A stretch of DNA of 64,000 bases from Cryptosporangium arvum DSM 44712 (GTDB taxonomy: Bacteria > Actinomycetota > Actinomycetes > Mycobacteriales > Cryptosporangiaceae). Made by a program: the position numbers and the translations under genes. Position 1 is the first letter of the stretch, and each line of letters starts with the position of its first letter. The notes below the pieces were generated by a model. That model saw only the letters and a list, made by a program, of their open reading frames with translations. It made no database searches and was not told where the DNA came from. The stretch is from contig NZ_KK073874.1 of NCBI RefSeq assembly GCF_000585375.1, forward strand, positions 5,920,894 through 5,984,893, given 5' to 3'. Shown here piece by piece: positions 3,001 through 16,768 of this stretch.

Positions 3001-4225
3001 GCTGCTGGCCGCGGCCGTCGTGTTCCTCGGGGTGCGGTGGCGCGCGGACCGCCGAACGGCCCTCTGGTCCGCTGTTCCGGCTCTCGCTCCGGGCCTCGCC
3101 ACGCTGGCCCCCGCGCTCCACGCCCCCTGGCCGATCGCCGTGACCGTGCTCCTGGCCCTGGCCGCCACCGGCACCGTCACCGCCTGCCTTCCCCTCCGCT
3201 CCCCCACCGCCGGAATCCCGGCCACTCCCCTCCGCCGGTCGCCGAACACCACCATCGCCGCGGCACTGGCCGCCACCGCTACCCTCAACGCCCTGGCCTG
3301 GGCCCTGGCCGACCGCACCGCCACCCTCGTCGTTCTCACCCTCGTGCTCGCCGCCGCCACCGCCGTCACCGCGCTCACCCGCGACAACACCCCCCGCGGC
3401 ATCGGCGCCGCCGCCCTTACCGCCAGCGCCATCGCCCTGGCCTTCGCGACCGGCGCCGCCGCCGACCTCCCGGTGGCCTACCTCCTCGTGGCGCTCACCA
3501 CCGTGCTCGTCCTACCCGGCCTCCTCGCCGCTCCCCACGTCGTCACCGACGTTCTCGACGCGGGCGCCGCCGTGGCCGGCCTCCTCGCCTTCGCACTGAG
3601 CGCCTCCGCGGCCGGGCTCCTCGAGCTCGGCACCACCGGCGATCCGACGTTCGCCCTCACGACGACCCTTCTCGGCGTCCCGCTCGGGCTCGTCGGGTTG
3701 CGCTCCGACCGGCGCCGGTGCGGATGGCTCGTGCCGGTCGTGGAGCTCGTCGCGCTGTGGGCCTGGCTCGGCCGGGCCGGGGTCACCGTGCCGGAGGCGT
3801 ACACGCTCCCGGCCGCCGCGCTGACCGCAGCGTTCGGTCTCTTCACGCTGCGACGCCGACCGGCGGTGTCGTCGTGGCCTGCGCTCGGTCCGGCGCTCAC
3901 GGTCGCGACCGTGCCGACCCTCGTGGTCGCGCTGGCCGCGGGCACGCTCGGGGTCCGCGCGCTGCTGCTGGGGATCGCGGCGCTCGCCGTGACGCTCGCC
4001 GGCGCGGCGACCCGGCGGCAGGCTCCGTTCCTGGTCGGGGCCGTCGTGCTGAGCCTGGTCACCGCCCGGGCGCTCGTGCCGGTGCTCCCCGCGCTCGCCG
4101 ACACGGTCCCGACCTGGGTGCCGCTCTCCCTCGCCGGTGCGCTGCTGCTCGCGGTCGGCGCCACCTACGAGCGACGCCGCCGCGACGCCACCCGCCTGGC
4201 CGGCTTCATCCGCGCCATGCACTGA
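86..4225 (+). CDS. very large polytopic membrane protein, unknown function
   Basis: A 1379-residue protein. Residues 1-75 are an Ala/Arg-rich helical stretch. About 75-175 is a Gly/Ala/Pro linker with VAGPG-type repeats. Roughly 185 onward is a long series of hydrophobic helices in blocks (about 185-410, 520-640, 690-860 and 905-1370), separated by Thr/Pro/Asn-rich linkers such as NPTNPTNPTQP. The segment WGAFGIGGRAAIL after the first membrane helix resembles actinobacterial giant integral membrane proteins of unknown function. I see no catalytic motif. The ATG at 86 is the first in-frame start; upstream there are only 85 bases of G-rich sequence, so a promoter cannot be judged. A transport or envelope role is only a guess. 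Confidence 0.75.
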   Translation: MYPDHEAARREAARQELARADAAVVVTARTLSVATGRARAARFEADRAENYAAAAYHAWAGASAHRARLLAQRLVSPGLAGTGSGVAGPGAAVPGVAGPGAKGSGAAGRGGVGAGYAAPYAASTEAGAPGHTAPAYASPAAGGAAPGVSWPGAAGPGAAGPGGVGPVPPWVGPVGEPVRPEASAWSVQTVLLALGGALLAVAAVVFTVVAWGAFGIGGRAAILAGITAITFAVPALLHRRGLTSTAETIGLLGLVLLALDGYALHHAGLVPSGGARYAGIVLGTVAAIALVYPALVPLRTLRPAGLVLAHPAALLLFSPSLDVLAAYAALGLALVGADVAIRWFSRNQALRTVALVCGAFTALGTALSAFVAAAAPTGATAAPAQRLVGTLVLIGLAAAILLAAETATPARTTSTSARTTSTSVRATFSRAALPSPPANPANPAEPTNPTNPTQPATAPHASGADSHPTGPAHPSTARPAAPTPADAPSAERGADGASAVARGLAAGVAVPMVLAGPVVQWLLFGPRGWGLTGVAVAITAAAAVTLALRTPWRTGTGIASAVVAAVAGISPVTAVGFTLLAPLVSPELVWRATSVTQPVWAVPDARPSPDLVTALLALTVATGLLLLSLDRRPSPSTAPDSTTTPHEKIQTAPRGVQPTSPHGEGIARQAASSAAPLGVGAVLVLAPAAFGASIWATLLVVGLAAVAATVAGMVRRAPVLSWLGGVLAAHATVVSLASREATLVTLGLVAALYGIVAVRSTGTRQVVATGLALGTLSGWAAAVATAVARDASGWVGGPGPAGVAVGLSALVALTIARLTRDARPHSATLAAILAGVTAYTGAALAAAVPGPGGDLQLVDRSVLAILALTAAALAAVAVHAALPRPAAGITGNSRPTGEFATEGRRPSAGRWGAVAAATPGIVVAASALVPTVLAVVVGPLSWVTAVWRGAPADAAALGPALTYPGTVLDPVVLLAAAVVFLGVRWRADRRTALWSAVPALAPGLATLAPALHAPWPIAVTVLLALAATGTVTACLPLRSPTAGIPATPLRRSPNTTIAAALAATATLNALAWALADRTATLVVLTLVLAAATAVTALTRDNTPRGIGAAALTASAIALAFATGAAADLPVAYLLVALTTVLVLPGLLAAPHVVTDVLDAGAAVAGLLAFALSASAAGLLELGTTGDPTFALTTTLLGVPLGLVGLRSDRRRCGWLVPVVELVALWAWLGRAGVTVPEAYTLPAAALTAAFGLFTLRRRPAVSSWPALGPALTVATVPTLVVALAAGTLGVRALLLGIAALAVTLAGAATRRQAPFLVGAVVLSLVTARALVPVLPALADTVPTWVPLSLAGALLLAVGATYERRRRDATRLAGFIRAMH

Positions 4226-4243
4226 CCGGCGCGGACAACCCGC

Positions 4244-4777
4244 TCACGAGAACCGCCCCAGCAACGACCGCACGCACGACGTCCCGAACTCCACCGCCTC
4301 GACCGGAATGCGTTCGTCCACCCCGTGCACGAGCGTCGTGAACTTCATCGACGCGGGCAGCGTGCTCACGCAGCACCGAGGCGAGCGTGTCGAACAGCCC
4401 CAGCGACGGTTCGAGCGTGACGGGATCGTGCCGCACGACGCCCAGCTCGACGTCGTCGCCCAGCAGTGCCCGAAGCTCGGCCACGAACGACTCGGGCCCG
4501 AAGCCGGGCAGCAACCGACCGTCCAGATCGACCGAAGCAGACGTAGGGCGCACGTTCACCGCGCCGCCGGGGCGGGCAACGCGGCGGCCACCGCCGGTCC
4601 AGCACCGGCAGCATCGATCCCAGCCGCGCGGTCACCCCACCCGGCCGGGCGAGCGACCCGTGACCGCCCGGAGCACGCACGACCGCCCGCACCGTGCAAT
4701 TCTGCTTCTCCGCGACCTGAACCGGGTAGAACCGGCGACACCATCCGCAACACCGCGACCGGGTCGGGAACGGACAT
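4244..4777 (-). pseudogene. M20-family metallopeptidase, degraded by frameshifts and deletions
   Basis: Pieces of one M20 (ArgE/DapE/carboxypeptidase-like) protein appear in order but in different minus-strand frames. An N-terminal-like MSVPDPVAVLR starts at 4777. FYPVQVAEK...GGHGSLARPGG lies at about 4735-4590. VNVRPTSASVDLDGRLLPGF through LEPSLGLFDTLASVLR lies at about 4565-4370. KFTTLVHGVDERIPVEAVEFG to a TGA lies at about 4350-4244. The metal-binding N-terminal half and the segment before the C-terminal His are missing, so no active enzyme can be made. Its start overlaps the stop of the SMC-like gene (TGATG), so it may once have been translationally coupled to that operon. The order and spacing of the fragments make chance resemblance unlikely; the family assignment is from motif memory. 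Confidence 0.75.
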
Positions 4778-7700
4778 CAGACCTCCAGGAGATCGCCGGA
4801 GTAGCTTCCCGACAGCCACTCGCCCAGCAGCGCCACCCGGGCCGCCCGGCGGTCGAACCCGTGGATCACCGGCGCCTGGTTGTACGCCATCGCGTCCGAC
4901 GTCCGGCGCAGCTTCACGTACTCCCCGCACGCGTCGATCGCGTACCGCTCCATGTCGTCCTGGAGCGCGCCGACGACCGTGATGCCGCTGTCGGCGCCGA
5001 TCCGCTCGAACAGCGCCACCGCCTCGCGCCGGTGCTGCTTGCCGAGGTTGCGGCCCAACTCGTCCAGCACCAGCAGCAACGGCCGGCCGGTGCCCGACGC
5101 CAACGCCGCCGCGCACACCAGCTTCACCGCCTTCTCGTCCATCTGCGCGGTGTTCCCACGACGGTCGTAGGCGACCATCACGTTGCCCTCGGCCCGGCGC
5201 CACACCGGGGTGACCTCCCAGTTCCAGCGCTTGGTCGGGTCGGCCGGCGGTTCGGGCTCGACGAACCGCAGGCCCGCCCCGTACCCCCCGTAGGCCCGGT
5301 CGAGGTCGTCGAACTTCGCGCCGACCGCGGTGAGCCGGGCCGTGATCGCCCGGGCCAGCGACGCCCGCACCGCGGCGGCGGCCTTCGCCGCCTCCTCGTG
5401 ACCCAGCGACGCCGCGTCGCGGGCCCGCCGCTTCTCGACCCGCTCGTCGGCGAGGCGGGCGCGTTGATGGGCGTCCTCATGGGCCTTGAGCGTGAGGTGG
5501 TCGCGGACCGCGGCCAGGAGTGCACCGAATGTCTGTTTCTGCCGGTCGGCCTGACCGCGGCCGGGAGCCGAACGCTCCTCGCCCAGCGCCGTGACCTGCG
5601 CCGGTACCGGGTCCCCGGCCCGGAAGCACAGGGCGAGAATCTCCGCGAGCACCGACTCGGCGGCGCGCCACCAGTCGTCGGAGTCGAAGAGCTGCTCCTC
5701 GTCGGGCAGGTCGGCGAGATGGTCCTGCGCGGCCTCCACGGTGCCGCCCCACTCCTTGAGCAGGGAGTCCAGGTCGACGATCCGGCGCCGGGTCTCGAGC
5801 CGGTCGCGTTCGGCCCGGAGTTCGTCGCGGCCGTCCTCGACCCGGCGCCGGTTGCCGAGCAGCGCCTCGGCCTGCTGCTGGCGGCCGGTCTCGGCCAGGC
5901 GGGCCAGGTCGTACTCGTGGCGGGCGGCGGTGAGCCGGGGCGCGAGCGCGTCCTCGCGGTCGGCGACCTCGTCGAGTTCGCGGCGGTGCGCGCGGATCCT
6001 GGTCCGGCGGGACTCCGCGGTCACCGCGGCGCGCGCCGCGACGACCCGGCGGTCGGCGACCGCGAGCCGCCGGTCGGCGTCGGCGAGCTGCGCGGACGCC
6101 TCGTCGAGGGTGGTCCGCGCGTCGGCGACCGACGCCTGGGCCCGCTCGATGCGTGCGGCCCGCCCGGTGATCGGGGCGGCGAATCCCCCGACGACGGTCA
6201 CGCCGCCCGACGTGACGGCGGCGCCGTTCACCGCCGCCGCGGCCTCCAGCCGCGAGAGGAACGCCGACGGATCGGAGACGACGATCGAGCCCGGGATCCC
6301 GGCCAGCGCCGCCGTGGCGGCATCGAGATCACCCTCGCCGATCACCACCGCTTCGCGGTACGGCCAGAGCAGCGGCTCCCGCACCGCCCGCTGCGGCTCC
6401 GCGATCGTCACCGCGTCGACGAGCGCCGTCGCCGCGATCCCGGCGGTCCGCAGCGCGGCCAGCTGCGGGGCCGCGACGTCGTCCCCGGACTCCGCCACCC
6501 GCACCGCCGCCCGGGCCGCGTCCAGCGCCGACGCCGCGATAGCCCGGGCACCGATCGCCGCGGTGCGCACCGTCGCCGCGGCTTCTAGCTCGTCGGACGC
6601 GTCCGCCACCGACCGACCGTCCGTGTCCCGCGCCGTCGCCTCCAGCTCGTCGGCTTCCCGGCCGAGCCGCTCCAGGCTCCCGGTCAACGCCCGGCGGCGG
6701 TCACGTAGGGCCTGGTGGTCGGCGTCGACCGACGCGAACGACTCCTCCGCGCGGCGCAACCGGTCGCGCAGCGCGACGTCGTCGCCGAGCACGTGCAGTT
6801 CCTCGGCGATCGTCGCGAGCCGTTCGGCCTGCGCACCGTCGTCGGCGGCGATCCGCTCCAGGTCGTCCTCGATCGCCTCCAGCTCGTCGGCGCCCCGCGC
6901 GACCAGCACCGCCGCCCGCGACCGCCACCGGTCCCGCGCCGTTCCGGCCAGGTCGCGGGCCTGTTCCCGCCGCGCGATCGCGGACTCGATGTGGTGCGCC
7001 TGCTCTTCCCACTCGACGAGCTTGCGCTCGGCGTCGGCGGCCTTCTCCAACTCGGCGTGCTCGGTGTTGCGGTGGCGCTGCTCGTCGGCGATCTCGTGGT
7101 CGAGCCCGGTCAGCGCCGCGACCGCGGAGAAGATCCGGTCGGGCTTGAGCTCGTTGAGCGGCTGGGCCAGCAGGTTCGCGGTCGCCGACGGCCGTACCGA
7201 CGTCGACAGGAACGACACGCACCGGATGTGGTCGCCGAACAGCACGCGGGACAGGTCACGCGCGTTGTAGTCGCGTCGACCTGCGCGGGGCGGGAGCGCC
7301 GCCCACAGCGTGTCCGCTTCCCGCTCGCGGTCGGCCTCCGACGCACCGACCGGCACGTGCAGCCCGTTCGCCCACCGCACCAGCACGTGCGGGGTGTCCC
7401 GTGAGATCCGCAGCCACACGGTGAGCGCGCTCGGCCCCGGGTCCTCGGCCTCACGGTCGGCGAACACCCCGATCACGTACCCGTGGTCCGCGCTCGCGTA
7501 CTCCCGCTCCTGCGCGGCGATCTCCGCGGAGAACAACAGGTCGGCCGATTCGCGGGCCCCGGACGCCAGCCGCCACTGCTCGTCGCCGTGCAACAGCGTC
7601 AGCGCGGCGATGAACGAGGACTTCCCGGCCCCGTTCGAGTCCTTCGGCCCCTGCCCGGCGACCGTGATCAGGCACCCCGGCAGCAGCGGCACCGGGTGCG

Positions 7701-7782
7701 TCGAGAGCCGCGACACCCCGATCAGCTGGATCCCGATCGCGACCCGGTCACCCACGACGTCCAGGTGGTCGTCGATCCTCAC
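4777..7782 (-). CDS. SMC/MukB-like coiled-coil ATPase
   Basis: A 1001-residue protein. The N-terminal ATPase half has a P-loop GQGPKDSNGAGKSS at residues 43-56 (Lys54). Residues about 230-460 and 550-700 are Arg/Glu/Ala-rich heptad-like coiled coils. A small globular hinge-like region sits at about 470-545. The C-terminal half has a Walker B PLLLVLDELGRNL at 901-913 (Asp907, Glu908). Where an ABC signature would be expected (about 878-886) the sequence is TAQMDEKAV, so the usual SGG is missing. Its GTG start overlaps the upstream stop as GTGA. The order head, coil, hinge, coil, head is the SMC/Rad50/MukB plan, and the partners suggest a condensin-like loop extruder acting on DNA, possibly in chromosome maintenance or plasmid/phage defence. 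RecN- or SbcC-like alternatives fit less well because no nuclease partner is seen. Confidence 0.8.
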   Translation of the reverse strand: MRIDDHLDVVGDRVAIGIQLIGVSRLSTHPVPLLPGCLITVAGQGPKDSNGAGKSSFIAALTLLHGDEQWRLASGARESADLLFSAEIAAQEREYASADHGYVIGVFADREAEDPGPSALTVWLRISRDTPHVLVRWANGLHVPVGASEADREREADTLWAALPPRAGRRDYNARDLSRVLFGDHIRCVSFLSTSVRPSATANLLAQPLNELKPDRIFSAVAALTGLDHEIADEQRHRNTEHAELEKAADAERKLVEWEEQAHHIESAIARREQARDLAGTARDRWRSRAAVLVARGADELEAIEDDLERIAADDGAQAERLATIAEELHVLGDDVALRDRLRRAEESFASVDADHQALRDRRRALTGSLERLGREADELEATARDTDGRSVADASDELEAAATVRTAAIGARAIAASALDAARAAVRVAESGDDVAAPQLAALRTAGIAATALVDAVTIAEPQRAVREPLLWPYREAVVIGEGDLDAATAALAGIPGSIVVSDPSAFLSRLEAAAAVNGAAVTSGGVTVVGGFAAPITGRAARIERAQASVADARTTLDEASAQLADADRRLAVADRRVVAARAAVTAESRRTRIRAHRRELDEVADREDALAPRLTAARHEYDLARLAETGRQQQAEALLGNRRRVEDGRDELRAERDRLETRRRIVDLDSLLKEWGGTVEAAQDHLADLPDEEQLFDSDDWWRAAESVLAEILALCFRAGDPVPAQVTALGEERSAPGRGQADRQKQTFGALLAAVRDHLTLKAHEDAHQRARLADERVEKRRARDAASLGHEEAAKAAAAVRASLARAITARLTAVGAKFDDLDRAYGGYGAGLRFVEPEPPADPTKRWNWEVTPVWRRAEGNVMVAYDRRGNTAQMDEKAVKLVCAAALASGTGRPLLLVLDELGRNLGKQHRREAVALFERIGADSGITVVGALQDDMERYAIDACGEYVKLRRTSDAMAYNQAPVIHGFDRRAARVALLGEWLSGSYSGDLLEV

Positions 7783-8396
7783 TGTTCTCCTCTGCCCGCT
7801 CGAATCGCCGCCGCCAGGGGGCTCCCCGGGCCGGCGGCCAGCACCAACTCCTCCTGCAGCACCTTGCGCGCGGCCGGCGTCAGCCGGTGGAACTGCGCCC
7901 CCGGCACGTACCCCGCGCTGCGCGTCTGCCGGATCAGGTCGGCCGTGCGCAGCCGCTGCAGCGCCTCGCTGAGCTTGCCCCGCGCCAGCTGCGTGTGCCC
8001 GCGCAACTCGGCCACCGTGGTCGGCACCGCGGAGGCCCAGCTGTCGTCGGTGAGGTGCCCCTCCGACCGCGGGATCGCCACCGAGTGCACGAGGATCGTC
8101 GTGAGCACCGCGCGGTCGTACTCCGGCAGCGCACCCCAGCCGCGGGCCACGAGTTCCTCGCGCACGTCGTCGGCGTACCCGCTCGTCCACTGCCGACCGG
8201 CGGCACGCACCAGGTCACGCCCGGTCCGGCGCAGCACGGCCCGGAGCGTCTCGCGCAGCGCCGGGTCCCGGAGCGCGGCGAACCCGACCTCGTCGACCGG
8301 CTCCCGCCCGTACTCCACCGCGGCCCAGGCGGCCACGACTTCGTCGCGTTGCCGCTCCGACAGCGCCCCCAGGATGTCGTCCGCCGGATGAGTCAC
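7779..8396 (-). CDS. winged-helix-like small subunit of the SMC-like operon
   Basis: A 205-residue soluble protein. The C-terminal half (TTVAELRGHTQLARGKLSEALQRL followed by AGYVPGAQFHRLTPAARKVL) reads like a winged-helix fold, and the N-terminal half is helical. In SMC-kleisin operons a small winged-helix protein (KITE type: MukE, MksE, JetB) sits next to the ATPase gene, and this gene is in that place. The start is the GTG at 8396, which overlaps the stop of the upstream gene as GTGA; its own TGA overlaps the GTG of the ATPase gene in the same way. The role is inferred from size, fold impression and position; no direct family signature was recognised. Confidence 0.65.
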   Translation of the reverse strand: MTHPADDILGALSERQRDEVVAAWAAVEYGREPVDEVGFAALRDPALRETLRAVLRRTGRDLVRAAGRQWTSGYADDVREELVARGWGALPEYDRAVLTTILVHSVAIPRSEGHLTDDSWASAVPTTVAELRGHTQLARGKLSEALQRLRTADLIRQTRSAGYVPGAQFHRLTPAARKVLQEELVLAAGPGSPLAAAIRAGRGEQ

Positions 8397-9985
8397 CCCG
8401 CCCCCTCGCGTGTACTTCCCGCTTCTTCTCCGTACGCCGCCCCGCTGCCCACCGCCCGCGCGGCGCCCCCACCCCGAAGCGCCTCCGGCGACGAGCCCGA
8501 AGCGGGCGAGACATCGGCGTCGGAAGTCGCTGGCTTCGGGGCCGGAGCCGGCGTCGTTGCCCGGGTAGCCCCCGGAGCCGCGGTGGGCAGCTCCGACACA
8601 GCCGACGTGGTCCCGCGGGAAGCGTCCCGCGGAGGCAGCATCGTGCCGCGGGTAGCGTCCGCGGCGGCCGACCCTGTCGTGCGCGGTTTCTCCGGTGGCA
8701 TAGGCGGGGTGGGCATGGTGCGGCACAGCTCCCGCAGGGCCTCGAGTTCCGCGACCGGCCAACCCGCCACCCGCGGCCCGAGCCGGATCGTTCCCGCCCG
8801 CTCCCTCCACCGCAACCAGCCGGAGTCGTTGAGCTGCCGGAACGCCTCGACCGCGAACCGGTGATGGGTTTGCGGCAACCGAGTGGGCAGCAACTCCGCC
8901 AGCATCCCCATCACCGCGGCGACCGACGTCTCCCGCCCCGGCCAGGGCTCCCCGGCCAGGTCGCTCCAACAACAGCGCAGACACACGGCGAGCACCCGGC
9001 TCGCCTCGTTCCGATGGTCCAACGTGGGCAGCCCCAGCCGCAGATCACGCAGCGCCGCCGGGGTCACCCCATCCGGCCCGACCGGCACCAACCAGGCCCC
9101 GGACGGGCCCCCCGCCGCCCGGCGGACCTCACCACTCCCAGCCCTACCGAGCGCGCGGTCAGAAGGGCCGCCGACCTTCCCCTCATCCGGAGCACCACGA
9201 GAACTCTGGTCAAGCCCAGCGTTCCCATCACGCCCAGCACGCTCGACATCCCCAGCCTTCTCAGCACCCTCAGCACGGCCAGCACCCTCGGCACGCCCAG
9301 GGCCCTGGACACTTCCGGTGCCCTGGACACTTCCGACGCCCTGGACACTTCCGACGCTCTCGATTCCCTGGACAATCCCGATGCCCTGAGCGGTTTGGCC
9401 ACTTCTATCGCTACGGCCGCGTTCGTCACTTCGGGCGTTTTCCTCACGCTGAGCACGCTGGTCACGCCGAGCGCTCTGGTTGCTTCGGGTGCTCTCGCCA
9501 CTTCGGGCGCTCTGGTCAACTTGGGTGTTCTCGTTCCCCGGGGTGTTCATGGCGCTCTCTGGACTGTCTGCGCCCTCGGCGGTTCCGGCACCACCACGAG
9601 TCACGGCACCGCCGTCGGACACGTCATCCCGGACAGTCACGCGATCCCCACCGGCCACGCCGTCCCCCGCGGCCCCGCGGCCCCCTGCGGCTCCGCGGCC
9701 CCCTGCGGCATCAGGATCTCCAGCGGCTCCAGGATCCCCAGCGGTCCCCTGATTCCCGGCGGCCCCATCGCCACTCATGCCCAGCGCGCTACTCGCGCCC
9801 GTGTCGGTGCTCGCCGCACCATCAGCCACGGAAGTCACGCCGTTATCCGCCGAAACACCCGCTGGCTCCAGCAACCGCCGGAACCCGTCCGGTGCCGCCA
9901 CCCCCGGCGCGACCGCCAACGGTCCCTCGGCGCGAGCTCGAGCCGCCCACAACGCCGCCTCGTCCAAAGCCGCCACCTCTACCAC
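8393..9985 (-). CDS. 3' part of the middle gene of the SMC-like operon (repeat-expanded)
   Basis: The open frame from a GTG at 9985 gives 530 residues. The first 45 (VVEVAALDEAALWAARARAEG... GFRRLLEPAG) look like folded protein. Then about 200 residues are low-complexity repeats (GSVQGVGSVQGTGSVQG, SARSGESTRSNQSARRDQ). A compact domain follows (LRLGLPTLDHRNEASRVLAVCLRCCWSDLAGEPWPG... RFAVEAFRQLNDSGWLRWRERAGTIRLGPRVAGW) that reads like a winged helix. The tail of about 100 residues is Ala/Pro/Thr-rich. Its stop overlaps the next GTG as GTGA. The true start is probably upstream in another frame at 10434: reading back from 9985 in this frame gives plausible protein (AGQLCAAGR) without a start. 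It is best seen as the second half of one gene broken by an indel. Confidence 0.6.
   Translation of the reverse strand: MVEVAALDEAALWAARARAEGPLAVAPGVAAPDGFRRLLEPAGVSADNGVTSVADGAASTDTGASSALGMSGDGAAGNQGTAGDPGAAGDPDAAGGRGAAGGRGAAGDGVAGGDRVTVRDDVSDGGAVTRGGAGTAEGADSPESAMNTPGNENTQVDQSARSGESTRSNQSARRDQRAQREENARSDERGRSDRSGQTAQGIGIVQGIESVGSVQGVGSVQGTGSVQGPGRAEGAGRAEGAEKAGDVERAGRDGNAGLDQSSRGAPDEGKVGGPSDRALGRAGSGEVRRAAGGPSGAWLVPVGPDGVTPAALRDLRLGLPTLDHRNEASRVLAVCLRCCWSDLAGEPWPGRETSVAAVMGMLAELLPTRLPQTHHRFAVEAFRQLNDSGWLRWRERAGTIRLGPRVAGWPVAELEALRELCRTMPTPPMPPEKPRTTGSAAADATRGTMLPPRDASRGTTSAVSELPTAAPGATRATTPAPAPKPATSDADVSPASGSSPEALRGGGAARAVGSGAAYGEEAGSTREGAG
9303..9356. repeat. 18-bp tandem repeat, three units
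   Basis: Three consecutive copies of ccctggacacttccgacg (the first differs at two bases) lie inside the low-complexity part of the middle gene and encode SVQG-type repeats on the minus strand. The length is a multiple of three, so copy-number change would keep the frame. Confidence 0.85.
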
Positions 9986-10434
9986 CCGCCCCGCAGCACA
10001 AAGCTGGCCCGCATCACAGTGCGACCCAGAACAGAGCGACCCAGAACAGAGCGACCCAGAACAGAGCGACCCCGCCGCACAGAGCGGTCCCCCATCACAG
10101 AGCGGCCCCGCAGCACAGTGCCAACCCGCAGCTCAAAGCCACCCCGCACGACAACCCCGCACGACACCCCGCCCCGCATCACAACAGCTGCCCGCTCTCC
10201 GAAGCCGCCTGCCGCAGCAGCGCGCACCTGCCCCGCAGCAGCGCGCACCTGCCCCGCAGCACGAGGCGACACCAACCCGCCGCTCGTCCGCGCGCCCGGC
10301 CGGATCCCGCCCGCCCACGCCCGGGCGCACCGCAACGCGGCATCGCCCACCACACCTGCGCCCACCACACCTGCGCCCAGCGCGGTGAGCGGCGCGAGGG
10401 CAGCCGGCACCCCCGCGATCGGAGGTGCGCTCAT
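9979..10434 (-). CDS. 5' part of the middle gene of the SMC-like operon, ends early in repeats
   Basis: The ATG at 10434 overlaps the stop of the kleisin-like gene as ATGA, the coupling used by the other genes here, so this is probably the authentic start. The frame encodes MSAPPIAGVPAALAPLTAL and then ARAWAGGIRPGARTSGG, passes through short tandem repeats that give RSVLGRSVLG-type sequence, and stops at 9979 after 151 residues. That stop overlaps the GTG of the downstream frame (GTGGTAG). The distance from this ATG to the last stop of the gene (2042 bases) is not a multiple of three, so one continuous product would need a frameshift. Either it is a short coupled ORF or the 5' half of a disrupted gene; I favour the latter. 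Confidence 0.45.
   Translation of the reverse strand: MSAPPIAGVPAALAPLTALGAGVVGAGVVGDAALRCARAWAGGIRPGARTSGGLVSPRAAGQVRAAAGQVRAAAAGGFGERAAVVMRGGVSCGVVVRGGFELRVGTVLRGRSVMGDRSVRRGRSVLGRSVLGRSVLGRTVMRASFVLRGGW
10020..10072. repeat. 15-bp tandem repeat, three units plus a partial
   Basis: agaacagagcgaccc occurs three times in perfect tandem (10028-10072) with a partial copy before it. It lies just upstream, on the minus strand, of the place where the middle gene of the SMC-like operon changes frame. Confidence 0.9.
10212..10253. repeat. 21-bp tandem repeat, two perfect units
   Basis: Two identical 21-base units beginning ccgcagcagcgcgc lie inside the 5' part of the middle gene and encode GQVRAAA repeats on the minus strand. 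Confidence 0.85.
10348..10377. repeat. 15-bp tandem repeat, two perfect units
   Basis: caccacacctgcgcc is present twice in tandem near the start of the middle gene and gives VVGAGVVGA on the minus strand. Confidence 0.85.
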
Positions 10435-11648
10435 CCGGCGACCAACACCCGGCGGAACGTTCCCTGCCCGCGCCACGACGGCACGCCCCCGGCGTCGACC
10501 AGAAGACCGTCACCCCAGACGAGCGCGTACGGCAGGGACGGGTGTTGGGCCGCGGCGGTGAGGTCGGCGAGCAGGCGGCGGGCCGTGGGCCAGTCCCCCG
10601 AACCGCCGACCAGCTCGGCGACGGCCACCGCCTCCCGCCCGGCGAGCGCGGCCTCGGCCCGGGCGGCCAGGTCGGCGGCCTCGGCGTCGTCGGCGGTGCG
10701 TGCGGGTTCGGCGTCCATCGGCTCGTCGTCGGCCGGACGGGGCGGACGGATCCGCGCGGCGGTGGGTCGCTCGGCCTGCGCCACGGCCTCGGTGAGGTCG
10801 GCCGCCGACAGCCAGGCCCGGGGCGCGTCGAAGACGAGCCCGGCGAGCGGCGCGGCGAGCGCGCTCACCGACGAACGGCGCGTGAACGTGCGCCACACCT
10901 CGGGCGGCAGCAGGTCCAGCGCCCGGGTGGCGCCCACGGCCTGGGTGAGCCGGCCCGCCGCGGCCGTCGACACGTCGCGATAGGACGCGATCGCGGCACG
11001 CAGCTCCGTGCTCGGCCGGGTGAGGTCCGGCCAGCGCGACAGCAAGGTGTCGTGCAACCCGGTGGCTTCGCCGATCAGCGCGTCGGCGTTCCAGAGCAGC
11101 GGCGCTTTCTCCCGGAGCGTGTCGATCGTGCCGCCCGACGTCAGCATGAACAGTTCAGTGACGATCAGCCGGAACGCCTTCGTGAGGCGCGCCGCGGCCT
11201 CGCGGGCGTCGTCCTCGGTCGCGGACGGGTCGTCGAGGTTGAGGCGTTCGAGGCTCAGCATGCGGTGCAGCTCGAGCTGACCACCGCGGGTGAGCATCCG
11301 GCGGACGAAGAGCAGCGAGACGTAGCTGGTGAAACTGGCGCGGTAGACGTCCTGGTGCGGACGGTCGAACGCCTTCTGCACCGCGCCGAGCTCACGCAGC
11401 ACGCGGACCCGCGACTGGAACACCGGCTCGGGGAAGCCCCGGCACGCGTGGCGCATCTGTTCCATCGTGAGGCCGTCGCTGCCGGCACTCGAGAACGCCG
11501 CGAACAGCGCGTCGGCCAGGTCGACCATCTCCGGGTCGGCGATGACGGACTGCGCCGAACTGCCCAGGACCGCGAACATCTGCCGGTAGACCGCGACGAT
11601 CGCGTTGTCGTGTGCGGCGCTCTCCAGCGTCAGGTCATCGAAGTCCAC
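10431..11648 (-). CDS. kleisin/MksF-like first subunit of the SMC-like operon
   Basis: A 405-residue soluble, mostly helical protein starting at a GTG. Residues about 45-95 (GLTMEQMRHACRGFPEPVFQSRVRVLRELGAVQKAF) look like a winged helix. About 110-290 are long helices, 300-340 an acidic Pro/Ala/Asp linker, and the C-terminus a second small domain (PYALVWGDGLLVDAGGV). A winged helix, helical middle and C-terminal domain is the plan of bacterial kleisins such as MukF and MksF/JetA, and the gene sits first in the operon as those often do. Its TGA overlaps the ATG of the next gene. The family call is an inference from architecture and neighbours. Confidence 0.6.
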   Translation of the reverse strand: MDFDDLTLESAAHDNAIVAVYRQMFAVLGSSAQSVIADPEMVDLADALFAAFSSAGSDGLTMEQMRHACRGFPEPVFQSRVRVLRELGAVQKAFDRPHQDVYRASFTSYVSLLFVRRMLTRGGQLELHRMLSLERLNLDDPSATEDDAREAAARLTKAFRLIVTELFMLTSGGTIDTLREKAPLLWNADALIGEATGLHDTLLSRWPDLTRPSTELRAAIASYRDVSTAAAGRLTQAVGATRALDLLPPEVWRTFTRRSSVSALAAPLAGLVFDAPRAWLSAADLTEAVAQAERPTAARIRPPRPADDEPMDAEPARTADDAEAADLAARAEAALAGREAVAVAELVGGSGDWPTARRLLADLTAAAQHPSLPYALVWGDGLLVDAGGVPSWRGQGTFRRVLVAG

Positions 11649-11732: not shown

Positions 11733-11855
11733 TCAGCCCTGACGGGCCTTCAGCCTGGGGTTCTTCTTGTTGACGACGAGGAGCTGGCCGTGGCGGCGAA
11801 CCACGATCGAGCCGTCCTTCGCCTTCAGCGATCGGAGCGAGTTCCTGACCTTCAT
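11733..11855 (-). CDS. rpmJ: ribosomal protein bL36, zinc-free (C-) paralogue
   Basis: A 40-residue basic protein beginning [20 protein letters not shown] and ending NPRLKARQG, the typical end of bL36. It has no cysteine or the zinc-binding set of the canonical protein, so it is the zinc-independent C- form that replaces the zinc-containing form in the large ribosomal subunit when zinc is scarce. An SD-like ggagg lies before the ATG at 11855. A Zur-box-like sequence about 50 bases upstream fits repression by zinc-loaded Zur. The gene stands alone, with a strong hairpin behind it. Confidence 0.9.
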
Positions 11856-11902
11856 GACGGCCGTCCTCCCTGCTTCCGATGTCCCGGAAGCCTCACGTAC
11901 CC

Positions 11903-11918
11903 GATAACGATTTTCATC
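11903..11918. promoter_or_regulatory. Zur-box-like operator upstream of rpmJ
   Basis: gataacgattttcatc closely resembles the actinobacterial Zur operator, an AT-rich imperfect palindrome around TGAAAATNATTTTCA. It lies about 48 bases upstream of the start of the cysteine-free bL36 gene, a classical Zur target. It is also a conspicuously AT-rich island in GC-rich surroundings. Confidence 0.6.
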
Positions 11919-12034
11919 TGGGGTACATTCCCGGGCTCTCGGCGATCGAGGCCCGCATCAGTGCGGGCGGTGGGTGTCGCCGCGACGTCGCGGCGGTGGC
12001 CGGCGCTCCTCGTCGGGCGCGCGGCGTCGTCGCG

Positions 12035-12247
12035 TCAGGCGGCGACGGGGGCGCTCCGACCGGGAAGCCGGTCGAGCGACGGCGTGAGGCCGTACGCGGC
12101 CTGGGCGCGCAGCGCCTCGCGCGTGTAGGAGTCGGCCAGCTGCCAGGCCAGGTCGTCGCGGTCGTCCGCGACCGCCTCGTTGATGCGAGCCGCGTACTCG
12201 TCGTGAAGTTCCTGCAGGTGCTGCTCAATGCTCAGTGCCGTAGGCAC
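12035..12247 (-). CDS. small helical hypothetical protein
   Basis: A 70-residue protein, mostly predicted helix (SIEQHLQELHDEYAARINEAVADDRDDLAWQLADSYTREALRAQ), acidic, with no membrane segment or cysteine. The GTG at 12247 is chosen because gaggaagg lies about six bases upstream; a longer frame to 12280 has no ribosome site. Small Asp/Glu-rich helical proteins of this type are common in actinobacteria, but I cannot name a family. It is transcribed towards rpmJ, with the Zur-like site between them. Confidence 0.6.
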   Translation of the reverse strand: MPTALSIEQHLQELHDEYAARINEAVADDRDDLAWQLADSYTREALRAQAAYGLTPSLDRLPGRSAPVAA

Positions 12248-12499
12248 GGTGACCTTCCTCGGTTCGTTCGATCGGAACACTTGTTACTGTACCGATTCAG
12301 ACGCCAAACGACCACTGAATATTCCGCCCGGAGCCGCCGCGCGGCGGGCATCACACGGATGACTACCCTGAGTCGGCCTCGCCGCGATGACCAGTCGCGA
12401 CGAGAGCGTCACCGAAGGAACAAAAGACCACTGAGGACACCGGAATATGTCCGATCGGACGAGGCGCGACCACCCACCCGGCCCCTAGCGTCCGGCGCC

Positions 12500-15400
12500 A
12501 TGACCTCCGGAACCACCCCCAGCGCCGCTGGGGCAGCCGCCGCTGCGTCCGTCAACAACCCGGAGGCCACTGTCCCGCTCGAGCCGGTCCGGAGCGCCGG
12601 CCCGACGGCAACGGTTCCCTTGGTCACGATCGACCCCGATGCCGACGAGGCTGCGGACGACGCGCCGCTATCCGCCGCTTCGCCGAAGCCGACCGCCGAC
12701 GCCCGATCCGCTGAGTCCGCGTCGGCCGACGGGCCGGAGCAGGTTGACACCGAGGTCGGGCGCACTGCGGCTGCGGAACAAGCCCCGCGGTCCGACGAGG
12801 AGCGCACGAACGCCTCGGCGGAGAACGCCGCTGATGATGCGGCCGCACGAGCGGATTCATCTGACCCGGCCGTGGCGCCGGTCGTTGAGCCGCCCATTCG
12901 TGCAGCCGCCGGGGACGATCGCCGTCCGAACGCCGCTCCACCGGGCTCGGCCGACGCACGCTCCGGACAAAGCCACCGGCCGACGCCGAACGGTGGGACG
13001 TCCGAGGTGAAGCCTGCTCGTCCAGCACCGACCCCTACGGCCGCGGCAGCGATCGCGCTGATCAGCGCCCGCCGCGGTGCACCCACGCCGCGCGACGCGG
13101 ACTCCACCCCACGTGAGGCGAGTTCGACCCCACGCGACGCGAGTTCCACCCCACGCGATGCGGGCTCCATTCCACGCGGCGCGCGGCCGACGGGATCGGA
13201 TCACGCGCGTCCGGCCGGTCCTGGCGACGCACGGCCGACCGGGCCTGGCGACGCACGGCCAGGCGGGCCGGGTGACGCGCGGCCGGCCGGGCCGGGTGAC
13301 GGAGCCGTGGCCTCGCGTGACGCGTCCGGCGACGAGCAGCGGGGATCTGCGCCCGGTGCGGGGCGGGACCGTGAAGGGACCGGGGCGCGGGACCTGGACC
13401 GGCAGGGGCCTTCCGACCCCCGGGCGGCCGGTGGCACCTCGTCCGGGCCGCTCGACCGCGTGACCGAGCCGGGTGCGGGCCCGGCGAAGTCTCCTGCGCC
13501 CTCCGCGAAGTCGCCGACCCGGCCGGTGGGACGTACCTACGGCTCCCCGTCGAACGACGCTCAGCCGTCGAGCGGACCGAGCACCTACCACCGAGCCGGG
13601 AACCCACCCGCACGACCGGTCGGCCGTACCTACACCACGTCGTCCGGCAACGCTCCCGCGCCGGAACCGGCGACGGGCTCCGGCAACGAGGGCCCGCCTG
13701 CCGGCCGGACCGACACGCGGTCCGGCGCTGACGACCGGTCGGCGAAACCGGCCGGGCGGATCTACTCCGGCGGGTCGAGCGCCGATCGGGGAGCTGACGG
13801 CTCGGAGGCCGGGGGAAGACCCGACCCGACGATCCAGCGCACCGGGCGGACCTACTCCGGTGCGGTCCCGGCGGACAGCAGGTCCGCGGCACGTGGTCCT
13901 CGGACCGACGAACCGAGAACCGCAACCCGGCCCGCCGGGCGCACCTACTCCGGCACCGTCCCGGTCGGCGACGGCATCCCGGCGACGCGAGCCCCTCGCA
14001 CCGAGGAGTCGCCGAGCGGCAACCGGCCTTCCCCACGCACGTACACCAGCTCGGTCTCGGCGGACGACACCGGTCGGACGACGGCTCCGACGCGGCCGGG
14101 GAGTCGACCGGCCGGCGGCGACCAGCAGGGCGCCCCGGCGCGTACCCCCGGGGCGGGCGAGGCGCGTACCCCCGGGGCGGGCGACGCGAAGGTCGGCACC
14201 CGGCCGGTAGGACGGACCTACTCGGCCTCGGCGTCACCTCGAACCGAGGACGACGCCGAGCCCGCCGAGCCGAAACAGGCTTCGGAGATCTTCAAGGTGG
14301 CGCCGGGGTCGGCGCTCGCGGCGCTGTTCGCGATGACCGACAAGTCCTCGGCCTCGGCGGCGAAGGACGACTCGGGAACGGCCACGACGGCTGAGCCCGC
14401 CTCCCCGTCCTCCCGTGCTCCGGGTGGGCGGAAACCCGCGTCATCGGCGGCTCGAGGCACGCCGGCGTCTCCGGCGTCTCCGGCGTCTCCGGCCGATCCG
14501 GATGCCGCGTCGGTAGGCGACTCCGAGGACGCGCCGCCCGCTCGGACGGGGAACGGTGCGGCGACGAGCGCGCAGATCCCCACGGGGGCCTCCGGCGCGA
14601 AGGCTGGTTCCGAGGGGCTCGGTCGGTCGACGTCGGCAGGAGTGTCGCGGGCTCCGTCCCGGCCGAACTCCGCGGCGGCGGACCCGACCACGGCGGCCCA
14701 CCCCGGTTCGGCCTCGGCGTCCGCGCTCGAACCGTCCGACGACGCGACACCCGCCCCCGCGCCGACGGAGAGAGGACGCTCGCGACCGGCGACCACCGCA
14801 CCCGAAGCGCGGACCACCGACGCCGACGCGCCGCCGAGGCCCGCGCGGGCAGCTGTTCCGCCCGGTACGGCGACGGTCAGCAGGGCTTCGATCCCGCACA
14901 TCCCGACCCAGCGCGCGACGGCGCCCGTCTCGGCGCCGCCGAGCAGCGGCTCCCGCACCGCGCCGCCGGACTCCGCGCGATCGAACTCCGCGCCGCCGGA
15001 CTCCGCGCGATCGAACTCCGCGCCGCCGGACTCCGCGCGATCGAACTCCGCGCCATCCGACTCCGCACCGTCGGATTCCGCACCATCCGACTCCGCACCG
15101 TCGGATTCCGCACCATCCGACTCCGCACCGTCGGATTCCGCACCGCCCGGGTCAGTGCGCGGCGCGGCCACGCCGACTTCCGCGCCGCCGACCACTCCCC
15201 GGTCCGCGGCAACACCGCAGCCGGCCACTTCCACGCGGGCCACGGTCACACCGGTCTCCGCACCGCCGCACAGCGCTCGGGCTGCGGTCACGCCGCCAGT
15301 CTCCGCACCGCCGCACAGCGCTCGGACCACGGCCACGCCGCCAGTCTCCGCACCGCCGGTGACGCCGCGGCCGTCGGTAACTCCGCGGCCGTCGGCGACG

Positions 15401-16768
15401 CCGCATCAGGCCGCCGCCCCGACCTCGGCCCCTCCCGCCGCCGCACGACCGACCGCGATGCCACCCGGCGGCGCGCAAACCGCGTTCGCGCCGCCTGTCC
15501 CCGCGCCACCAACCGGCACGCGGGGAGCAGCCACGCCACCAGTCCCCGCCTCCGCGCGACCGGCGAGCACGTGGGGCGCGGTCACACCACCGGTCTCCGC
15601 ACCGCCGGCAAGCGCCCGCGCCGCGTCGCCCACCTCCGCACCACCGGCGGACGCCCGCGCCGCGTCGCCCACCTCCGCGCCGCCGACCGGCACCTGGGCC
15701 GCCGCCGCAGCACCCACCTCCGCGCCTCCGTCCGGCACCTGGGCCGCCGCCGCAGCACCCACCTCCGCGCCTCCGTCCGGCACGCGGCCCGCTACCACCC
15801 CGCCCGTTTCCGCCCCACCGGCCAACGGCGCGCCGCCCGCCTCCGCCTCCCCCACCGGCACCTGGGGTGCAGCCTCCCCGCCTTTCTCCGCACCACCGGT
15901 CAACGCCCGGCCCGCCACCACGCCCACCTCCGCACCACCGGTTGGCGCGTGGGGTACGGCCGCACCGCCCACCTCCGCACCCCCGGCCGGCACCTGGGGC
16001 GCCGCCGGTCCGCCAGTCTCCGCGCCGCCCGCCGACGCCCGGGCCACCGCCGCACCGCCCACCTCCGCGCCACCGGCCAATACCTGGGGTGCGACCGCCC
16101 CGCCGGTTTCCACGCCACCGGCCGGAACGTGGGGTGCGGCCACGCCATCGGTTTCCACCCCACCGGCCGGAACGTGGAGTGCGGCCACGCCATCGGTTTC
16201 CACCCCACCGGCCGGAACGTGGAGTGCGGCCACGCCATCGGTTTCCGCGCCTCCGGCGCCGGTGGGCGGCGCGGCCGCGCCGCCCGTCTCCGGCCCGCCG
16301 ACCGGAGCGCAATCGGGCGCCTACCCCGGCGGGCGGGTCGAGGAGACGCCTAACGCGTTGCCGTCCAACGCGGCTGATCCGACGCTTCCGATGCACGTGC
16401 TGCCGGCCAAGCGGGAGCGACCGGAGCGGCCACGGCCGGTCGTCGCGGCGATGGTGCTGGTGAACCTCACCGGGGTCGGGTTGTTCGGGCTCTCGCTGCT
16501 GTTCGCGACGCTCGGACCGGCGGTGTTCTTCGTGCCGCTCGCCGCGGCGGTGATGATGGGCTGGCTGGGGCGGGGTATCTGGCGCGGTAGCCGCGGGGCG
16601 TACGTGATCACGCTGGCGATCGCGTCGTTCGTGGTGCTGGCCGGGTTCGCCTCGATCGGCGGCGCGTCGATTCTCGTCACCGGGCTGCAGTTGTTGTTGC
16701 CCGTGGTGCTGATCGGGTTGCTCACCGGCCAGTCCGCCACCCGTGCCTACTTCTGGACGGCCCGCTGA
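12500..16768 (+). CDS. giant low-complexity protein with C-terminal membrane domain
   Basis: About 1422 residues. The first 1280 are Ala/Pro/Ser/Thr/Gly/Arg-rich and predicted disordered, built from several repeat types: DASSTPR units (about residues 200-220), seven or more spaced copies of RPxGRTYS (about 330-580), SAPSDSAPSDS units (about 840-890), and SAPPxGTWxAA units (about 1000-1260). The last 120 residues are a conserved-looking domain with four hydrophobic helices (RPVVAAMVLVNLTGVGLFGLS to the end), so the protein is anchored at its C-terminus, probably with a cytoplasmic repeat tail. ATG 12500 is the chosen start; an upstream in-frame ATG near 12360 is possible and neither has a good SD. 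It overlaps the convergent MFS gene by 22 bases. Function unknown. Confidence 0.65.
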   Translation: MTSGTTPSAAGAAAAASVNNPEATVPLEPVRSAGPTATVPLVTIDPDADEAADDAPLSAASPKPTADARSAESASADGPEQVDTEVGRTAAAEQAPRSDEERTNASAENAADDAAARADSSDPAVAPVVEPPIRAAAGDDRRPNAAPPGSADARSGQSHRPTPNGGTSEVKPARPAPTPTAAAAIALISARRGAPTPRDADSTPREASSTPRDASSTPRDAGSIPRGARPTGSDHARPAGPGDARPTGPGDARPGGPGDARPAGPGDGAVASRDASGDEQRGSAPGAGRDREGTGARDLDRQGPSDPRAAGGTSSGPLDRVTEPGAGPAKSPAPSAKSPTRPVGRTYGSPSNDAQPSSGPSTYHRAGNPPARPVGRTYTTSSGNAPAPEPATGSGNEGPPAGRTDTRSGADDRSAKPAGRIYSGGSSADRGADGSEAGGRPDPTIQRTGRTYSGAVPADSRSAARGPRTDEPRTATRPAGRTYSGTVPVGDGIPATRAPRTEESPSGNRPSPRTYTSSVSADDTGRTTAPTRPGSRPAGGDQQGAPARTPGAGEARTPGAGDAKVGTRPVGRTYSASASPRTEDDAEPAEPKQASEIFKVAPGSALAALFAMTDKSSASAAKDDSGTATTAEPASPSSRAPGGRKPASSAARGTPASPASPASPADPDAASVGDSEDAPPARTGNGAATSAQIPTGASGAKAGSEGLGRSTSAGVSRAPSRPNSAAADPTTAAHPGSASASALEPSDDATPAPAPTERGRSRPATTAPEARTTDADAPPRPARAAVPPGTATVSRASIPHIPTQRATAPVSAPPSSGSRTAPPDSARSNSAPPDSARSNSAPPDSARSNSAPSDSAPSDSAPSDSAPSDSAPSDSAPSDSAPPGSVRGAATPTSAPPTTPRSAATPQPATSTRATVTPVSAPPHSARAAVTPPVSAPPHSARTTATPPVSAPPVTPRPSVTPRPSATPHQAAAPTSAPPAAARPTAMPPGGAQTAFAPPVPAPPTGTRGAATPPVPASARPASTWGAVTPPVSAPPASARAASPTSAPPADARAASPTSAPPTGTWAAAAAPTSAPPSGTWAAAAAPTSAPPSGTRPATTPPVSAPPANGAPPASASPTGTWGAASPPFSAPPVNARPATTPTSAPPVGAWGTAAPPTSAPPAGTWGAAGPPVSAPPADARATAAPPTSAPPANTWGATAPPVSTPPAGTWGAATPSVSTPPAGTWSAATPSVSTPPAGTWSAATPSVSAPPAPVGGAAAPPVSGPPTGAQSGAYPGGRVEETPNALPSNAADPTLPMHVLPAKRERPERPRPVVAAMVLVNLTGVGLFGLSLLFATLGPAVFFVPLAAAVMMGWLGRGIWRGSRGAYVITLAIASFVVLAGFASIGGASILVTGLQLLLPVVLIGLLTGQSATRAYFWTAR

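Follow-up and report, generated by a model that had tools for sequence, protein, structure and literature searches.

A four-gene operon of the actinobacterium Cryptosporangium arvum DSM 44712 appears to encode an SMC (structural maintenance of chromosomes) complex of the KITE type. It occupies positions 4777-11648, on the minus strand, of a 64,000-nucleotide stretch of contig NZ_KK073874.1 (positions 5,920,894 to 5,984,893), called the window here. The source genome is complete, consisting of a single contig of 9,195,993 bases (9.2 Mb). The explanation that we prefer, with modest confidence, is that the operon represents a KITE-type SMC family that has diverged from Wadjet types I and II and from MukBEF, and that occurs both as armed complexes, serving defence, and as unarmed ones, probably acting on the chromosome. 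Its basis is the gene order, the predicted folds of two subunits (moderately), the failure to find a nuclease, the distribution of the family and purifying selection. Complex formation, a KITE heterodimer, effector docking, extrusion and a chromosomal role are inferred. A bolder version is offered only tentatively. It posits a hitherto unnamed SMC family of actinobacteria whose KITE pair is heterodimeric and which shifts between a weapon against plasmids and phages and a housekeeping condensin as its one docked effector (toprim nuclease, protein kinase or none) is lost or swapped; in whole genera, the unarmed form would have become fixed as a core organiser of the chromosome.

The genes follow each other in the order kleisin, KITE-like middle subunit, small winged-helix protein and SMC-type ATPase, with the following features:

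10431-11648, minus strand: kleisin-like subunit, 405 residues, with an N-terminal winged helix, a helical bundle, a disordered linker and a C-terminal winged helix
9979-10434, minus strand: low-complexity frame of 151 codons, its ATG overlapping the kleisin stop and its own stop lying at 9981-9979, where the middle-protein frame begins
8393-9985, minus strand: KITE-like middle subunit, 530 residues, with a core (residues 7-45 and 296-428), an insert (46-295) and a low-complexity tail
9101-9850, minus strand: strain-specific low-complexity insert of the middle protein, mostly of 18-bp periods, absent in three loci of the same genus (L054-L056)
7779-8396, minus strand: small winged-helix protein, 205 residues
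4777-7782, minus strand: SMC-type ATPase, 1001 residues; its head is split, and a region that interrupts the two long helical arms was read as the hinge
7618-7656, minus strand: Walker A motif of the SMC protein, GQGPKDSNGAGKS, residues 43-55
5131-5154, minus strand: NTAQMDEK, residues 877-884 of the SMC protein, at the SGG position according to an alignment by eye
5041-5079, minus strand: Walker B motif and D-loop of the SMC protein, LLLVLDELGRNLG

Including the window, 49 loci were read, 40 of them from one scan of genome contigs and the others, from the same genus, the same order or more distant, from whole-genome searches. The complete four-gene set is present in identical order in 44 of the 49. 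The five loci set aside are L036 and L058 (one genome, frameshifted), L045 and L060 (fragments) and L061 (unmatched). In L035 and L042, the winged-helix and SMC genes lie about 2 kb apart. The ratio of nonsynonymous to synonymous substitution rates (dN/dS), computed against three same-genus relatives, is 0.11-0.14 for the small winged-helix gene, 0.15-0.22 for the kleisin gene, 0.21-0.24 for the SMC gene and 0.15-0.28 for the core of the middle protein, which is 75-84% identical to its same-genus relatives. It amounts to 0.33-0.45 for the entire middle protein, low-complexity parts included. The operon is real, the core of its middle protein is conserved, and its genes are under purifying selection.

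The kleisin was modelled with AlphaFold2 from 39 rows (mean pLDDT 64.5, pTM 0.40). The model contains a winged helix, a bundle, a disordered linker and a second winged helix, an arrangement that we take to be the MukF layout. Foldseek ranked four MukF-containing entries of the PDB first, namely 9gm7_D (E 0.019), 1t98_A, 3euh_B and 3rpu_A (range E 0.019-0.45); 1t98 is MukF by title, and the chains of the other three were assigned to MukF by length. Predicted fold, layout and these four matches argue moderately, all E-values being above 0.001, for a MukF-type kleisin, as the first-pass annotation of the window (kleisin/MksF-like) had proposed. A sub-threshold match of the kleisin to nSTAND1 (E 8.5e-4, in 4 of 44 members) was judged to be due to chance.

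The middle protein was modelled through its 169-residue orthologue in locus L016, from Haloactinopolyspora (35 rows, pLDDT 82.4, pTM 0.78). The first eight PDB matches of this model are Wadjet JetABC or MukE/MukF entries, the best being chain C of the E. coli Wadjet JetABC (8as8_C, E 0.0029). Of the top 14 matches, 12 belong to entries for MukE/MukF/MukBEF or Wadjet JetABC; their chains were identified as MukE or JetB from their length, or in the case of 7v8p from its title. A KITE is thus the most likely identity of the extra subunit. The earlier description of a repeat-laden middle protein was correct for the frame, but the predicted fold points to a conserved KITE, nearest to JetB/MukE, that carries a strain-specific insert. 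The C-terminal half of the small winged-helix protein gave sub-threshold winged-helix matches (to MarR_2 in 16 of 44 members, with a best E-value of 4.5e-4), and the profile of the protein retrieved mostly helix-turn-helix regulators from the PDB, at E 0.14 or worse. Judging from sequence, it is probably the second KITE subunit.

Kleisin- and KITE-like folds are thus predicted for two of the three smaller subunits. They favour the initial picture of an SMC-kleisin complex with winged-helix subunits, recalling MukBEF, MksBEF and Wadjet with one subunit more. Family models add little here: no Pfam or NCBIfam model scored above its cut-off for any of the four window proteins, their best match to the PADLOC models has an E-value of 0.0018, and hidden Markov model searches of the PDB with the four family alignments gave nothing specific.

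In the SMC protein, Walker A (GQGPKDSNGAGKS, with K54) is matched by a Walker B motif, LLLVLDELG, at residues 902-910. K54, D907 and E908 are invariant in all 33 aligned rows, and LDELG is found in 44 of 44 sequences. The SGG signature is absent from all 33 aligned rows; its expected place is occupied by NTAQMDEK, which is present in 43 of 44 SMC sequences, L059 being the exception. The helical arms and the hinge were read by eye from the sequence. An SMC ATPase of 1001 residues with split halves and without the canonical SGG had indeed been described in the first reading. That the protein is instead a RecN-, SbcC- or Rad50-like repair ATPase with unrelated neighbours is extremely improbable. 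Weak Rad50 and ABC matches do occur, as does a match to an archaeal SMC-related protein (16 of 33, best 1.4e-4), but SMC_prok_B gave both the best and the most frequent sub-threshold match (in 19 of 33 members; at best 6.7e-7, well short of the model's cut-off), and the kleisin- and KITE-like neighbours are constant. In the family-model scans of the operon proteins, none of the RecN, SbcC and Rad50 models, the repair families first named as the alternative, scored above cut-off, and no Muk or Mks family was among the matches listed.

The four proteins would form a single complex, in which an SMC dimer is bridged at its heads by the MukF-like kleisin and two different KITE-like proteins are bound. 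The middle protein and the small winged-helix protein would probably sit on the kleisin as a heterodimer. By analogy with JetABC and MksBEF, as treated in passages of a review (PMC10586767), the core may entrap DNA in an ATP-driven manner and probably extrude loops.

Downstream (3') of the SMC gene, the window contains remains of a peptidase gene and no JetD-like gene:

4250-4737, minus strand: pieces of an M20 peptidase gene, matching residues 178-224, 291-363 and 397-434 of the L054 peptidase by tblastn

This gene is intact 3' of the operon in L054-L056, and the L054 protein is a Peptidase_M20. Region 4206-4780 was considered as a broken JetD and rejected, as it contains the M20 pieces instead. 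The JetD_C model had no match in the complete source genome (the control matched in 1 of 14 control genomes), and neither had DUF2399; the DUF2399 control found nothing in the control genomes, so this second absence is weak when taken alone. A toprim gene of the L017 type (see below) was likewise not matched in the source genome, although the same query matches in 7 of the 21 genomes searched. At the level of sequence, the claim that the window complex has no nuclease holds. The missing JetD/toprim gene of the first-pass annotation is therefore borne out for the window and its genome by the JetD_C, DUF2399 and family-type searches, but not for the relatives, some of which have a toprim or kinase gene.

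The gene junctions also needed revision. Overlaps of four bases, initially reported for every junction, are present between the middle and winged-helix genes (8393-8396) and between the winged-helix and SMC genes (7779-7782). Positions 10431-10434, however, are no junction between the kleisin gene and the conserved middle-protein frame, whose first in-frame start is the GTG at 9985. The ATG at the kleisin stop opens the separate frame of 151 codons, which is possibly a coupling leader. In L054-L056 the middle protein can begin at the kleisin-stop overlap (the start-calling script favoured overlap starts), so repeats seem to have shifted the start of the middle gene out of frame in the window strain. 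Arrays of short repeats, with periods of mostly 13-21 bp, fill 9101-10434, within and ahead of the middle gene, and the middle protein of three same-genus relatives measures 231-259 residues, without the 250-residue insert. A decaying, Wadjet-like remnant in the window strain would account for the displaced start, the expanded repeats and the adjoining M20 gene in pieces. It is nevertheless quite improbable in view of the uninterrupted frames and of dN/dS, which lies at 0.11-0.28 for the KITE core and the three other genes. A 760-residue frame in Fodinicola (L036/L058), apparently fusing kleisin, KITE and winged-helix protein, was dismissed as a frameshift artefact.

Some relatives of the operon are armed. 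Among the 44 four-gene loci, the SMC gene is immediately followed by a toprim gene in four (L017, L024, L049 and L059), two have a kinase fusion (L028 and L039) and 38 have neither; the fragment L060, set aside above, also contains a piece of a toprim gene. The DUF2399 cut-off of 23.4 bits is passed by the toprim proteins of L059 (36.0) and L049 (24.0). That of L017 passes JetD_C (23, cut-off 22) and stays below the DUF2399 cut-off (20.6), and that of L024 was assigned by its 84% identity to L017. In hhalign, the toprim set aligned to the Wadjet II DUF2399 with a probability of 95.7 (0.1 for a column-shuffled control), compared with just 6.4 for JetD. PADLOC labels the set of DUF2397, DUF2398, TIGR02680 and DUF2399 as type II. 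The ExN...E and DxD residues, presumably the toprim acidic residues, are kept in the alignment.

The L017 toprim query matched in the genomes of L017, L024, L049, L059 (G151), L028, L039 and Kineosporia mesophila (L014). The 14 genomes without a match are the window genome, three of the same genus, two of family f68 (one being the Fodinicola of L036) and those of L015, L016, L018, L020, L021, L023, L025 and L032. In Kineosporia mesophila the toprim effector gene is unlinked (L093:8795-10033, minus strand) and 47% identical to that of L017; no core operon genes were found in the 19 kb around it. In L028 and L039 only residues 1-155 or 1-185 of the query match. There, a Pkinase domain (E 6e-27 and 2.5e-27, respectively) is fused to the N-terminal domain of the toprim effector (L028:7778-9160 and L039:13114-14493, both plus strand), and the fusion is followed by a similar gene of 342-352 residues that has no Pfam match.

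Since a kinase is fused to the same N-terminal domain, this domain is argued to be a dock on the SMC core. In armed members, the N-terminal domain of the fifth gene product would dock on the core, leaving the C-terminal domain to act as toprim nuclease or, in two cases, as protein kinase. Completed extrusion on a small circle would then trigger the docked effector, and armed members would probably restrict plasmids or phages as Wadjet does. In a PADLOC scan of nine neighbouring genes from four armed or kinase loci (L017, L024, L049 and L039), L017 was found to adjoin PDC-S68 and Avs2, and L049 two CD-NTase genes. The segment L049:14410-19738 (minus strand), 3' of the armed operon, encodes a DUF3800 protein in addition to the two CD-NTase genes.

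The unarmed form has a different distribution. An unarmed SMC gene occurs in all four searched genomes of the window's genus and in all 38 Kribbella genomes (the genus of the L023 genome). A family-type effector gene is found in none of these four and in one of these 38, where the match concerns the N-terminal part only and lies in a second operon, of low third-position GC (L106, below). The unarmed form thus looks fixed and core in both genera. The source genome also encodes an ordinary SMC elsewhere (942 bits), and the window's unarmed complex probably acts on the chromosome beside it, as MksBEF does in Pseudomonas. The first-pass annotation had left the choice between a new condensin and a plasmid- or phage-defence complex; both find support, in different branches of the family.

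An unarmed complex that defends the cell by entrapping and silencing or unloading plasmid or phage DNA, in the manner of Smc5/6 on viral circles, or by calling an unrecognised effector encoded in trans, is rather unlikely here. Such a role would agree with the defence genes adjoining the armed relatives L017 and L049, with the unlinked toprim gene of Kineosporia, which makes pairing in trans possible, and with the rarity of the family in the phylum. Matches were obtained in at least 3 of 246 and at least 3 of 396 genomes, counting the source genome; the counts are minimum values, since scoring was limited to the best 2-3 first-look candidates of each genome. However, the patchy occurrence of defence systems contrasts with the family's presence in all 38 Kribbella and all four window-genus genomes, and no family-type effector gene was matched in 14 of 21 genomes, that of the window among them. 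Nor was a mobile carrier found in the phage, plasmid and viral collections: 50,697 phage records gave no family match, viral contigs gave none in a scan with two short peptide patterns, and the sole match in 72,556 plasmid records is an 11.9-Mb Nonomuraea record.

Armed and unarmed operons meet in the Kribbella genome G479. L107 is its unarmed core copy, and the armed set is L106:

6356-13630 of L106, plus strand: armed operon, four genes followed by one for a 469-residue protein

This last protein aligns over its full length with the toprim proteins of the family (by alignment only). The L106 kleisin is nearest to the distant L059 type (42%), third-position GC is 0.62-0.69 in L106 compared with 0.76-0.84 in L107, and transposase-like frames, recognized by eye, lie about 2 kb beyond L106. 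The armed copy looks acquired and the unarmed copy native.

In a tree of 44 SMC rows, the window clusters with its own genus (support 100/100), and the 22 Kribbella-type rows and seven Jiangella rows each form a clade (100/100 in both cases). L017, L024, L028 and L039 constitute one clade (100/100), which L049 joins weakly (83/36). The SMC protein of L033, from a record titled Streptomyces sp. SID13031, falls inside the Kribbella clade; the record is probably a mislabelled Kribbella. When a 23-row tree is rooted on L059 and L106, two changes suffice to explain the unarmed label; each of 500 shuffles required more. Root and direction are uncertain because of the long branches of L059, L106 and L057. 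It is possible, without being probable, that the unarmed state is ancestral and that toprim and kinase genes were recruited later, nothing having been domesticated from defence. With the root left free, the 23-row tree needs as few as two changes between armed and unarmed states, and four armed or kinase rows form one strongly supported clade. On the other hand, both outgroup rows, L059 and L106, are armed, and L059 resembles L017, L024 and L049 to a similar extent in toprim (35-37% identity) and SMC (34-36%), as expected from co-inheritance. The long branches make the root unsafe, and the placement of L049 is weakly supported.

Compared with known systems, the four-gene family belongs, as far as the predicted folds indicate, to the broad class of KITE-type SMC complexes. 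With Wadjet types I and II (JetABCD, MksBEFG) it has in common an SMC protein, a MukF-like kleisin and a KITE; certain relatives also share the JetD_C/DUF2399 kind of toprim gene, located immediately 3' of the SMC gene. The family differs in its further small subunit and in lacking, in the window, both the SGG signature and a nuclease. The SMC protein has 1001 residues, whereas those of two type I loci have 1133 and 1158 and those of six type II loci 1385-1562. The JetA and JetB models do not match the window proteins, and JetC reaches just E 0.17-1.9, whereas all eight type I and II Wadjet proteins from the same phylum used as positive control match Jet models at 1e-90 or better. By the PADLOC models, the family is not a member of Wadjet I-III.

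MksBEF and MukBEF are similar in the predicted folds (nearest to MukF and MukE/JetB), in having no nuclease and in being an additional SMC complex next to the ordinary SMC. They differ from the window operon, which has two distinct KITE-like genes, the order kleisin-KITE-winged helix-SMC and no Muk or Mks family among its protein matches. Smc-ScpAB has the same SMC-kleisin-KITE plan, but the source genome has its ordinary SMC elsewhere. Smc5/6 contains the Nse1/Nse3 KITE heterodimer; should the small winged-helix protein be a KITE, the window operon would likewise encode a pair of unlike KITE-type subunits. The operon has a single SMC gene, and the likeness is an analogy only. No published description of the four-gene family was found in the open PubMed Central literature, from which most subscription journals are absent.

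Several observations weigh against a Wadjet- and MukBEF-related family with armed and unarmed forms. The Foldseek matches of both kleisin and middle protein have E-values above 0.001, and the mean confidence of the kleisin model is low. The family-wide lack of the SGG signature means that ATP use by the SMC protein is not certain. With hhalign, none of the four core families (kleisin, KITE, winged helix and SMC) showed convincing homology to a subunit of Wadjet I/II. SMC gave a probability of 7.1 with TIGR02680 (one stretch of about 90 positions) and 2.9 with JetC, kleisin gave 1.7 with JetB, and the other core-family comparisons gave 1.0 or less, with column-shuffled controls of up to 0.3. 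Of the profile comparisons suggested at the outset, those with Wadjet I/II subunits provided no convincing match for the core subunits, so that the toprim gene and the fold are the basis for assuming kinship with Wadjet. PADLOC found no match for the two genes scanned beside L024 or the one beside L039, and core status in a genus does not alone exclude a defence role. Finally, the middle gene of the window strain has lost its ATG-overlap start and gained an insert of 250 residues.

A review (PMC10586767) proposes that MksBEF likely arose from Wadjet through loss of JetD. Armed and unarmed versions of one SMC family co-occur here, even within one genome, making that step directly testable. The kinase fusion points to the SMC core as a sensor that can be fitted with different docking effectors. 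The family may reveal how machines of this kind switch between defensive and chromosome-maintaining roles.

Two further features were noted 5' of the operon. A gene for ribosomal protein L36 is located at 11736-11855 of the window (minus strand), and was also seen by eye in three same-genus loci. Beyond it, on the plus strand, extends a frame of 1629 codons (11879-16768); its sole match is extensin-like and sub-threshold, and the encoded protein is rich in Ser/Pro/Ala/Thr repeats, with a hydrophobic C-terminal end.

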